Part shown: positions 37,506 through 40,912 of the stretch, piece by piece | How positions within the stretch are numbered: the first letter of the stretch is position 1 | How the letters are laid out: each line of letters begins with the position of its first letter | Assembly (NCBI GenBank): GCA_027622975.1 | Contig: JAQBVN010000011.1 | Span: 1 to 64,000 of the forward strand | Source: Bacteroidota bacterium | GTDB lineage: Bacteria > Bacteroidota > Bacteroidia > Flavobacteriales_D > Sanyastnellaceae | Length of the DNA stretch: 64,000 nt | Reading direction: 5' to 3' | Translations under genes and position numbers: made by a program | The notes under the pieces: generated by a model | Databases searched by the model: none | Seen by the model: only the letters and a program-made list of their open reading frames with translations | Told to the model about the DNA's origin: nothing

Positions 37506-37996
37506 GGGAGGAGGTGAGATTTGGGGGTAAACAGGCCTCTGAGACGACCCGTCCCAGCAAACACCTCGGCCCAAGAGTGAACGTGAAGCTCAATTTCTGC
37601 CATGCCGGAGGTGGGAAGCCAAATGGTTTGGTCTGTCAGTCGGTCCACCAATTCACTCAAGCCCGGGTTGTGCCCCACGAGCCATCCACTTTCAGCCTGG
37701 TCGTCCCATTCGTTCACCCAGCGCAGCCAAGCACGGTCCGACGCGAGGTAGGCGTCGGGTTCAAGCGTCATGGCAGATTCCGGTTCTTGCCATGCCGAGA
37801 GAAGGAGCAGGCCCGTTTGCAAGGTTCGGTTGGCAGGACTGACGCAACACGGCGTTCCCTGCCGCCGTGCCGGTGCACACCACGCACCGAGTTGCTGCAC
37901 ATCTTGAATGCCTCTAGGGGCCAAATCCCGCTCAAAATCAGGACATGAACCATGAGGCTCAGCCTTTCCGTGGCGAACGATGAAGAGGCGCTTCAT
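37502..37996 (-). CDS. sixA: SixA-like phosphohistidine phosphatase
   Basis: 164 residues from the ATG at 37996. The RHG motif is at residues 8-10 (IVRHGKAE), with His9 as the phospho-acceptor, and the second His is in VGHNPGLSELVD. Histidine phosphatases of the SixA type remove phosphate from phosphohistidine in signalling proteins. It forms an operon with the AI-2E permease. A divergent gap of 105 bases separates it from the DtxR-like gene. Confidence 0.88.
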   Translation of the reverse strand: MKRLFIVRHGKAEPHGSCPDFERDLAPRGIQDVQQLGAWCAPARRQGTPCCVSPANRTLQTGLLLLSAWQEPESAMTLEPDAYLASDRAWLRWVNEWDDQAESGWLVGHNPGLSELVDRLTDQTIWLPTSGMAEIELHVHSWAEVFAGTGRLRGLFTPKSHLLP

Positions 37997-38034
37997 AGGG
38001 TGAAGGTCGCAAAAAGTCCTTTGCAATCAATATT

Positions 38035-38050
38035 TTTAGATTTGTCTAAA
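38035..38050. promoter_or_regulatory. Operator-like dyad 1 upstream of the DtxR-like regulator
   Basis: TTTAGA-TTTG-TCTAAA, a perfect dyad resembling DtxR/MntR-type boxes. A -7 element TAGATTTG (38037-38044) lies inside it, so a bound regulator would block transcription. Confidence 0.65.
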
Positions 38051-38055
38051 TTATT

Positions 38056-38073
38056 TTTTAGATACAGCTAAAA
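38056..38073. promoter_or_regulatory. Operator-like dyad 2 upstream of the DtxR-like regulator
   Basis: TTTTAG-ATACAG-CTAAAA, six-base arms, five bases after the first dyad and 28 bases before the ATG at 38102. Its arms resemble those of the first. Confidence 0.6.
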
Positions 38074-38101
38074 ATGAAGGTCGCTGCCGTAGTTTTGTTC
38101 C

Positions 38102-38752
38102 ATGGCAAAATCCAAACAACGAGAGGATCATGTCAAAGCGCTTTATGCACTTGGCGAATCCTTGGGTGGTCCCAAGGCGTGGGTGTCCACCAATCAAATG
38201 GCGGATCACCTCGGGGTGAAGGCACCGAGCGTCACCAGCATGGTCCAGGTACTTCAAGAACTTGGATGGGCGGAACATCGCCCGTATCGCGGGGCTCGCT
38301 TGACCGTGGCTGGCCGTCGGTTGGCGCTGAATTTGGTGCGCAAGCATCGATTGTGGGAGACGTTTCTGGTGGAACGTTTGGGGTTTGGTTGGGAGGAAGT
38401 GCATGACATCGCCGAGCAGCTTGAGCACATCGACAGTGTCAAACTTGTGGACCGACTGGATGAATATTTGGGATGTCCCAAAGTGGACCCTCATGGAGAT
38501 CCCATCCCCGACGGAAAGGGGCTGTTCAACGACGACCGGTCTCTCCGATCTCCTTCAGACCTGGTGGCAGGCGACGTGGGAAGGGTTGCAGCTGTCCAAC
38601 GCGATGATGCGGCTTTGTTGTCCTTGTTGAAGTCCCACGGAGTCGCGTTGGGGACGGAGTGGACGCACGAAGCATTGCAGGGGTTGCCCCATGATTTGCG
38701 GGAGCAACTCTTGTTGGAGTTGGTGTCAACGATGAAACACGGAGCATCATGA
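38102..38752 (+). CDS. DtxR/MntR-family metal-dependent transcriptional regulator
   Basis: 216 residues. The winged-helix DNA-binding domain (WVSTNQMADHLGVKAPSVTSMVQVLQELGW) is followed by the dimerisation/metal domain with HRLWETFLVERLGF, HDIAEQLEHIDSVKLVDRLDEYLG and the family motif DPHGDPIP. A FeoA-like C-terminal part follows from about 150. Metal, probably Mn2+ or Fe2+, turns on DNA binding. Two dyads upstream suggest that it controls its own operon. The stop overlaps the ATG of the ZIP transporter gene (ATGA). Confidence 0.93.
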   Translation: MAKSKQREDHVKALYALGESLGGPKAWVSTNQMADHLGVKAPSVTSMVQVLQELGWAEHRPYRGARLTVAGRRLALNLVRKHRLWETFLVERLGFGWEEVHDIAEQLEHIDSVKLVDRLDEYLGCPKVDPHGDPIPDGKGLFNDDRSLRSPSDLVAGDVGRVAAVQRDDAALLSLLKSHGVALGTEWTHEALQGLPHDLREQLLLELVSTMKHGAS

Positions 38753-39573
38753 TGGACACAGTCATCGCCTGGTTTGAGGGTCAGGGACCCGTTCGTTCAG
38801 CCCTTGTTGCGACTCTGTTTACTTGGGGGCTGACAGCGGCTGGAGCCGCCTTGGTGTTTCCGTTCAAAACGATGAACAGGAAGTTGTTTGATGGCATGCT
38901 CGGTTTCACAGGGGGGGTGATGGTCGCGGCGAGCTTTTGGTCGTTGTTGGCGCCAGCCATTGACATGGCAGGGGGGGATGGCTTTGCCAAAGTCGGACCG
39001 CCTGCCCTTGGTTTTGCGCTGGGTGCTTTGTTTATCCATGCCTTGGATCGGCTCATCCCTCACCTTCACATCAATTTCAAAAAAGAGGAAGCAGAGGGTC
39101 TACAGACCAATTGGCGTCGAACCACGTTGTTGGTGCTAGCCATCACCCTGCACAACATTCCCGAGGGATTGGCTGTGGGTGTTCTGTTTGGAGGAGCGGC
39201 GTTGGGTTTGGATGGAGCGACCACGGCAGGTGCCGTGGCTTTGGCTTTGGGCATTGGAATTCAGAATTTCCCAGAGGGATTGTCGGTCAGCATGCCTCTG
39301 CGTCGGGAAGGCGTGTCACGGACCAAGGCTTGGTGGTACGGTCAATTGTCGGCTGCCGTGGAGCCCGTCGCGGCTGTGGTTGGTGCTGTGGCTGTGATGA
39401 CCATGCGGCCGCTTTTGCCATACGCCTTGGCCTTTGCAGCAGGGGCCATGATTTACGTTGTGATCGAAGAAGTGATTCCAGAAACGCAGCGAGACAAATA
39501 CACAGATGTCGCCACGTTGGGATTCATCGCGGGCTTCATTGTGATGATGTCACTGGACGTGGGTTTGGGATGA
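38749..39573 (+). CDS. ZIP-family divalent metal transporter
   Basis: 274 residues; an ATG one codon later (38752) is an alternative start. Eight TM helices are expected. The two metal-site helices carry HNIPEG (135-140) and QNFPEG (172-177), as in ZupT/GufA-type ZIP proteins, and a histidine-containing loop (IPHLHINFKKEE) sits between helices. It moves Zn2+, Fe2+ or Mn2+ into the cytosol. Coupling with a DtxR-like regulator favours manganese or iron. Its 3' end overlaps mpl by 38 bases, tail to tail. Confidence 0.93.
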   Translation: MMDTVIAWFEGQGPVRSALVATLFTWGLTAAGAALVFPFKTMNRKLFDGMLGFTGGVMVAASFWSLLAPAIDMAGGDGFAKVGPPALGFALGALFIHALDRLIPHLHINFKKEEAEGLQTNWRRTTLLVLAITLHNIPEGLAVGVLFGGAALGLDGATTAGAVALALGIGIQNFPEGLSVSMPLRREGVSRTKAWWYGQLSAAVEPVAAVVGAVAVMTMRPLLPYALAFAAGAMIYVVIEEVIPETQRDKYTDVATLGFIAGFIVMMSLDVGLG

Positions 39574-40912
39574 TGTTCACACCACCAAACCGACCGCTGC
39601 TCATCATCAGAAGCACGTGGTTGCTTTGGGGAACGTCTTGCAATCGCGCATTCAACTCTGCCTGGTCTGTGATGACTTCCAAGGAGGTTCGGCCAAAGCA
39701 AGCTCTCACAAATTCAGCATCGAGTGAAGGCAAGCGCTTGTGGGCCACAACGTCGGGATCGAAGTACACCACGGCGTGATCCACAGCATCCATGGATCCG
39801 TGGTATTGGGGAAGAAAATCCTTGTTTAGGCTGCTGAAGGTGTGCAATTCAAACACGGCTGTGACTTCTCGATCGGGAAACTGCCCCACGACTGAAGCTT
39901 GGGTGGCCCTGAGTTTGGAGGGGGCATGGGCAAAGTCTCGGAACACCACAAAGTCGTTGGATTCATGGGCCATTTCGAGTCGTCGGGCTGCACCCGTAAA
40001 ATCAGTCATGTGAGCGTCGAAATCGACAGCATCCATCCCCATGGCCACGCAACACGCCCGGGCGGCTGCGAGATTCTGCATGTTGTGAGCACCCAACAAC
40101 GATACGGCCAAGGGCTTCGTTCCATCCAAGGTCACCTCGCTGCCGGTGGACGTAGGGTGATGTGGTGGCGTTTGATAGCCAATCCAACGAATGTCGGGAC
40201 GAAGCGGTTGGGCCTGGGCTATCACGCGGGCCAGGAGTTTGTCTTCTGTGCAGTGGACAACGGTGCCTCCATGTTCCACCGTCAGGAGGTAGGTAGAGAA
40301 CTGAGCGATGTAATCCTCTTCAGTCGGAAACACATTCACATGATCCCATGCAATGCCCGTGATGACTGTGACATGCGGGCCGTACCACAGGAACTTGGGT
40401 TTGGGGTCAATGGGTGAACTGAGGTATTCATCACCCTCGATGACTGCCCATTCGGTGTGGGGATCCAGGTGAACCATGCGATCAAACCCCTCGAGTTGCG
40501 CGCCCACCATGAGGTCAGTCGATTGACCGGCGCCTTTCATGGCATGGAGAATCATCGAGGTGACGGTCGTTTTGCCATGGCTTCCTGCGATGACCATGCG
40601 CTTCTTGTCTCGGGTGGCAAAGCGCAGGAACTCGGGATAGGATTGGATGGTCAATCCCATTTCTTGGGCGCGAAGCAGCTCGGGGTTATCGGTCCGAGCG
40701 TGCATTCCCAGGATCACGATGTCAATGTCGGGATTCAGTCGGTCTGGATGCCATCCATCCATTTCAGGCAACAAGCCAGCTTTGTCAAGACGGCTTCGAC
40801 TCGGTTCAAAAATTTGGTCATCCGACCCGGTAACATCATGACCTGAATCTGCCAAGGCCAAGGCAAAGTTGTGCATCGCGCTTCCGCCGATGGCAATCAA
40901 ATGAATCCGCAT
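39536..40912 (-). CDS. mpl: UDP-N-acetylmuramate:murein tripeptide ligase Mpl
   Basis: 458 residues from the ATG at 40912. It starts MRIHLIAIGGSAMHNFALAL (Mur-ligase Rossmann domain); the ATP loop is GSHGKTT (110-116), and AGAHNMQNLAAA-type and DFAHAPSKLRAT motifs belong to the Mpl/MurC group. It joins a recycled cell-wall peptide to UDP-MurNAc. The long upstream reading extension has no coding character. A -7-like AAGATTTG lies 11 bases upstream. Confidence 0.92.
   Translation of the reverse strand: MRIHLIAIGGSAMHNFALALADSGHDVTGSDDQIFEPSRSRLDKAGLLPEMDGWHPDRLNPDIDIVILGMHARTDNPELLRAQEMGLTIQSYPEFLRFATRDKKRMVIAGSHGKTTVTSMILHAMKGAGQSTDLMVGAQLEGFDRMVHLDPHTEWAVIEGDEYLSSPIDPKPKFLWYGPHVTVITGIAWDHVNVFPTEEDYIAQFSTYLLTVEHGGTVVHCTEDKLLARVIAQAQPLRPDIRWIGYQTPPHHPTSTGSEVTLDGTKPLAVSLLGAHNMQNLAAARACCVAMGMDAVDFDAHMTDFTGAARRLEMAHESNDFVVFRDFAHAPSKLRATQASVVGQFPDREVTAVFELHTFSSLNKDFLPQYHGSMDAVDHAVVYFDPDVVAHKRLPSLDAEFVRACFGRTSLEVITDQAELNARLQDVPQSNHVLLMMSSGRFGGVNIIPNPRPVTSSQ

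Follow-up and report, generated by a model that had tools for sequence, protein, structure and literature searches.

A putative tandem operator with a 22-bp pitch upstream of a DtxR-family regulator and ZIP transporter operon in a Bacteroidota bacterium

In Deinococcus radiodurans, the metal-dependent regulator DR2539 answers to Mn(II) as well as Fe(II), has a lysine at the position of MntR Glu11, and keeps the equivalent of His98 (PMC3327659). It is a repressor of mntH and recognises an inverted repeat within the promoter of a metal importer, its characterised targets being the NRAMP transporter (mntH) and MntABC. In S. mutans, SloR acts at the sloABC and mntH promoters, where 18-bp sites placed 4 bp apart (i.e., with a pitch of 22 bp) overlap the promoter and are bound cooperatively (PMC12096823). 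IdeR and DtxR of Actinobacteria occupy a classical 19-bp site with two overlapping dimers, and the site of a single IdeR dimer has been given as TTAGGNNNNCCTAA (PMC8464063). B. subtilis MntR, whose binuclear Mn site includes Asp8 and Glu11, forms cooperative arrays at mneP, with sites 1 bp apart and thus a 19-bp pitch (PMC11275975).

The locus compared here with these systems lies in the window, i.e., the whole stretch of 64,000 nucleotides that was analyzed from a contig of a Bacteroidota bacterium (Table 1). Region 38035-38073 is very probably a two-dimer operator, through which a DtxR/MntR-type repressor loaded with Mn(II) (possibly with Fe(II)) would shut off its own operon of regulator and ZIP transporter. 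As for DR2539, an inverted repeat is found in the promoter of a metal importer and the lysine and histidine mentioned above are both present, the difference being that the regulator is here the first gene of its own operon, together with a ZIP. The Mn-regulator fold (5cvi) and the 22-bp pitch are common with SloR, whereas the half-site (TTTAG vs. AATTAA) and the promoter (Bacteroidota-type vs. sigma-70 type) differ. The fold is also that of IdeR and DtxR, and the half-site spacing of TTAGGNNNNCCTAA equals that of TTAGN-N4-NCTAA here, but separate sites 22 bp apart take the place of two overlapping dimers and the partners are Mn-type importers. The repression of importers by metal-loaded DtxR-family dimers, which is inferred for our locus, is likewise the mode of B. 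subtilis MntR, from which the locus differs by its pitch (22 vs. 19 bp) and by the lysine in place of Glu11. This kind of system is already known, and the interesting parts are the fixed 22-bp spacing and the swappable partners.

Table 1. Coordinates of the features at the regulator–ZIP locus (positions in the window)
Feature	Position	Strand	Basis
Distal dyad of the putative operator, TTTAGATTTGTCTAAA	38035..38050	.	One of two genome sites; in 3/7 congeners
TAGATTTG, -7 element of the earlier note	38038..38045	+	Probably not the main promoter in the genus
Proximal dyad of the putative operator, TTTAGATACAGCTAAA	38057..38072	.	The conserved one; no variation in its TTAG and CTAAA columns among 7 congeners
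Probable -7 promoter element TAGTTTTG, TAnnTTTG type	38090..38097	+	TA..TTTG unchanged across 7 congeners
DtxR-family metal-dependent regulator, 216 aa	38102..38752	+	PF01325, PF02742; structure model and PDB matches; ligands invariant
ZIP-family metal transporter, 274 aa	38749..39573	+	Pfam Zip 93.7 bits; BbZIP match, E 1e-36

The first gene had been read in the earlier note as a DtxR-like regulator, which was borne out by Pfam, as both Fe_dep_repress (the N-terminal winged-helix DNA-binding domain; 40 bits vs. a cut-off of 26) and Fe_dep_repr_C (the metal-binding and dimerisation domain; 104 bits vs. a cut-off of 27) were recovered. In the structure model (mean pLDDT 91.5) the winged helix is present and the C-terminal region is folded, and its top fold matches are manganese repressors (5zr6, SloR 5cvi, and ScaR 3hrs). 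The two core domains are 48% identical to those of DR2539 (8pvt, 8pw0) and superpose at 1.1–1.4 Å, with 1.1 Å over 138 columns for the structure containing Mn and DNA (8pw0). The ligand residues H82, E86, H101, E105, E108, H109, and D129 are invariant in 110 of 110 orthologues, as is Lys12, the equivalent of MntR Glu11, while position 9 is an Asp at this locus. Because of this lysine, and since the scores remained below the cut-offs of the NCBIfam equivalogs for MntR in the sense of B. subtilis and E. coli (PRK03902 50.6 vs. 138, PRK11050 55 vs. 153, and NF047407 168.5 vs. 350), the protein does not read as a MntR of the B. subtilis type. It carries the DR2539/TroR/SloR-like signature (K12, H101, and the C-terminal domain) and belongs, by sequence and fold, with the DR2539/SloR/TroR group. 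The regulators of this genus lack approximately 17 residues of the C-terminal domain that are kept by other Bacteroidota orthologues.

The overlap of the regulator stop with the following start (ATGA, with the regulator ending at 38752 and the next gene starting at 38749) and the ZIP identity of that second gene, both proposed previously, were recovered as well: the Pfam Zip cut-off (35.1 bits) is exceeded, the HNxPEG motif is present as HNIPEG, and the score against the ZupT equivalog PRK04201 lies below its cut-off (134.3 vs. 252 bits). The divergent upstream neighbour has a weak match to SixA phosphatases. Across 110 loci, the regulator is followed by a ZIP gene in 45, by an NRAMP gene in 24, and by the gene of a TroA-type binding protein in 14. 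Two ZIPs are encoded in the genome itself, the second one on contig 10, while no NRAMP and no match to ZnuA/TroA were found in this 92% complete assembly, from which further operator sites or importers could be absent. Zinc is a frequent substrate of ZIP proteins. As unrelated importers of ZIP, NRAMP, and TroA type share one regulator, their common substrate is most simply Mn(II). Iron is possible as the sensed metal, since DR2539 answers to Mn(II) and Fe(II) (PMC3327659) and FeoB-like genes, recognised by eye, follow the regulator in two loci (L070 and L114, from Arenibacter and Allomuricauda), where they are accompanied by a membrane protein of unclear type. With repressor and operator unchanged, a main role of Fe(II) or Zn(II) instead of Mn(II) in both sensing and import seems unlikely, though it deserves weighing: in addition to the DR2539 response and the FeoB-like genes, BbZIP is the solved relative closest to the ZIP, and the zinc transporter ZupT is the NCBIfam model closest to it, but the ZIP is replaced by NRAMP and TroA-type importers in 38 of the 110 loci, and the top structural relatives of the regulator are Mn repressors. 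The operator motif could provide a means to assign ZIP substrates.

The two dyads described in the earlier note were found at the same coordinates, TTTAGATTTGTCTAAA at 38035-38050 and TTTTAGATACAGCTAAAA at 38056-38073, with a gap of 5 bases. They would be better described as one 16-mer occurring twice, TTTAGA-N4-KCTAAA, with starts 22 bp apart (TTTAGATTTGTCTAAA and TTTAGATACAGCTAAA). TTTAG-N6-CTAAA has two sites in the 2.27-Mb genome, both in 38035-38073; given this rarity and the recurrence at orthologous promoters, the dyads are far beyond chance. In 4 of 7 congeners the proximal dyad stands alone, which makes the distal one dispensable in those species. The regulator has orthologues in 52 of 60 relatives and at 80 further named Bacteroidota loci. 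Of 109 orthologous regulators in Bacteroidota, 94 are preceded by TTAG-N6-CTAA within 200 bp (1 out of 109 for the reversed control pattern), and 85 by the longer TTTAG-N6-CTAAA. An absence of the dyads from orthologous upstream regions, which had been named beforehand as the outcome that would speak against the proposal, is thus the opposite of what was obtained.

Compared with the one-dimer consensus TTAGGNNNNCCTAA, the geometry matches and four of the five bases per half-site (TTAG/CTAA) are conserved, the inner G/C being variable, with A or G on the left side in most loci. Since TTAGN-N4-NCTAA has its half-sites spaced as in the site of a single IdeR dimer, and since several congeners carry a TTTAGG half-site, the putative operator appears to be of DtxR type. 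The earlier remark that the half-site is not the classical TTAGG is accurate for this locus but fails as a general rule, and the departure reads as a local deviation. It is scarcely credible that the dyads belong to another regulator, e.g., the one Fur homologue encoded in this genome (contig 37), and merely adjoin the DtxR gene, as the dyad tracks the regulator at the 94 of 109 loci whatever the importer partner and has a geometry of the DtxR class (PMC8464063). No direct description of a Bacteroidota MntR/DtxR operator was found in the open-access literature searched, and the seemingly phylum-wide operator, which is unusually clear, is undescribed as far as that literature shows. Pairs of TTTAGR-N4-YCTAAA 22 bp apart would offer a concrete operator for a metal repressor found across Bacteroidota.

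When the regions upstream of the regulator are compared among seven congeneric species, the invariant columns fall in the two arms of the proximal dyad (TTAG and CTAAA), in TA..TTTG at 38090-38097, and in the ATG start codon, with TA..TTTG at a fixed 33 bp from the start of the proximal dyad. TAGTTTTG, the conserved -7-like sequence at this position, has the TAnnTTTG pattern of the Bacteroidota sigma-A -7; it had been overlooked in the earlier note, according to which the promoter is blocked through a -7 element embedded in the first dyad. The embedded octamer TAGATTTG does exist at 38038-38045, but among the seven congeners it is present solely at this locus, being unconserved in the other two with a distal dyad (G007 and G009) and absent wherever that dyad is absent, while TA..TTTG at 38090-38097 is found in 7 of 7. 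The earlier promoter assignment is probably wrong. That the working promoter nevertheless uses TAGATTTG and is covered there by the repressor is quite improbable: the octamer fits TAnnTTTG, and an identical TTTAGATTTGTCTAAA precedes the start codon by 26–37 bp in Chitinophaga, Pedobacter, and relatives, but, beside its lack of conservation and the loss of the distal dyad in four congeners, the octamer has no -33 TTTG at the usual distance, the closest one lying 14 bp upstream.

For the preferred promoter with its -7 at 38090-38097, transcription is predicted to start at the A of the ATG (38102), giving a leaderless mRNA, since the -7 element of F. johnsoniae spans -12 to -5 (PMC6847099); leaderless transcripts account for 5.5% of the mapped mRNAs in F. 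psychrophilum (PMC9723704). Because of this predicted start, the proximal dyad would span -45 to -30 and lie over the -33 region. A clear -33 TTTG was not found approximately 20 bp upstream of 38090, a region occupied by the proximal dyad, and the -33 element is also weak in F. johnsoniae (PMC6847099). Both candidate -7 elements (TAGTTTTG and TAGATTTG) have a G at -10, which is rare in F. johnsoniae (PMC6847099) and calls for caution. A sigma-70 promoter scan of 37900-39700 gave no hits. A reading of the dyads as an RNA hairpin was rejected, since they precede the predicted transcription start. The dyad is positioned differently in other lineages, including over a -7-like element (Chitinophaga, Pedobacter).

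For the operon behind 38035-38073 we infer binding, cooperativity, metal identity, repression, transcription start, and transport direction as follows. With a sufficient supply of Mn(II) (or possibly of Fe(II) as well) in the cytoplasm, a metal-loaded dimer would bind the proximal dyad (38057-38072) and cover the -33 region of the promoter with its -7 at 38090-38097. A second dimer would sit at 38035-38050, 22 bp or about two helical turns upstream and on the same face of the DNA, and stabilise the first one cooperatively. Two bound dimers would exclude RNA polymerase and keep the regulator–ZIP operon off, while a fall in metal would lift repression and lead to production of the ZIP importer.

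The spacing was analyzed by an offset scan in which the best dyad of each promoter served as anchor and every other offset was scored, using a non-redundant set of 54 loci (proteins clustered at 65% identity), a match of at least 7 out of 10 positions for the second dyad, and shuffled flanks (500 trials) as null. A second dyad at exactly +22 or -22 bp was detected in 25 of the 54 loci (null mean 2.5, maximum 7). The next best offset, 44 bp (7 loci), is the double of 22, and none of the others exceeded 7. The second dyads at 22 bp are mostly weaker than the first. Our locus, with its two strong sites, clearly exemplifies a widespread tandem in which a strong dyad is paired with a weak one. That streptococcal SloR, a relative by fold, has the same pitch suggests that one way of binding cooperatively is common to this branch of the DtxR family. 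Among 399 genomes of the order, strict tandem pairs gave many matches of varied spacing, which by eye look like chance matches in coding sequences, and the pairs at regulator-type promoters were all spaced 22 bp. One further 22-bp pair (G091, L158), which has phage-like genes in its vicinity but no visible metal gene, was left as chance or unknown. In L047, L050, L089, and L097 (Mucilaginibacter and a Pedobacter), the weak +22 dyad contains a -7-like element (e.g., ATTAGATTTGTATAAA), so a second dimer would sit on the -7.

Outside the regulator promoter, the other genomic 22-bp tandem pair of two congeners (G002 and G010) precedes a TonB-dependent receptor gene, 33–34 bp from TACTTTTG, and a third (G004) has one clear operator site before such a gene; these sites lie in L115 (1500-1580), L128, and L119, respectively. 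Furthermore, in 32 of 110 loci (including L013, L026, L027, and L029), the regulator and a TonB-dependent receptor gene are divergently oriented and have the intergenic operator region in common. The operator-bearing receptor is a candidate outer-membrane metal receptor, and genes of both membranes are probably under the control of the regulator in other species. Through the motif, a set of TonB-dependent receptors that lack a known substrate is linked to a manganese-type regulator. At the threshold used, no homologue of the G002 receptor was found in our 92% complete genome, where the operon may stand alone; the earlier idea of a self-contained metal homeostasis unit may hold in this genome, but not in those congeners with the operator at a receptor gene. 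In the seven incomplete genomes of the genus, a TonB-dependent receptor match is absent where the regulator has tandem dyads (this genome, G007, and G009) and present where it has a single one (G002, G004, G006, and G010). Single-dyad matches in other congeners (L118, L123, L127, and L133) had no obvious target. More tentatively, and with slightly less than even confidence, we suggest a phylum-wide manganese regulon of Bacteroidota, with two dimers at a 22-bp pitch, interchangeable inner-membrane importers (ZIP, NRAMP, or ABC), and often a dedicated TonB-dependent receptor of the outer membrane; if true, this would mean that manganese actively crosses the outer membrane by a TonB-driven route.

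A variant of the operator, GTTAG-N6-CTAAC, was observed in L026, L027, and L029 (G008, G005, and G001, respectively) and in L106. The regulators of the first three, although from the same genus, are only about 43–45% identical, and their recognition helix reads SKPSVNSM or SKPSVNGM vs. KAPSVTSM, so that variant operator and altered helix together could reflect a possible change of specificity.
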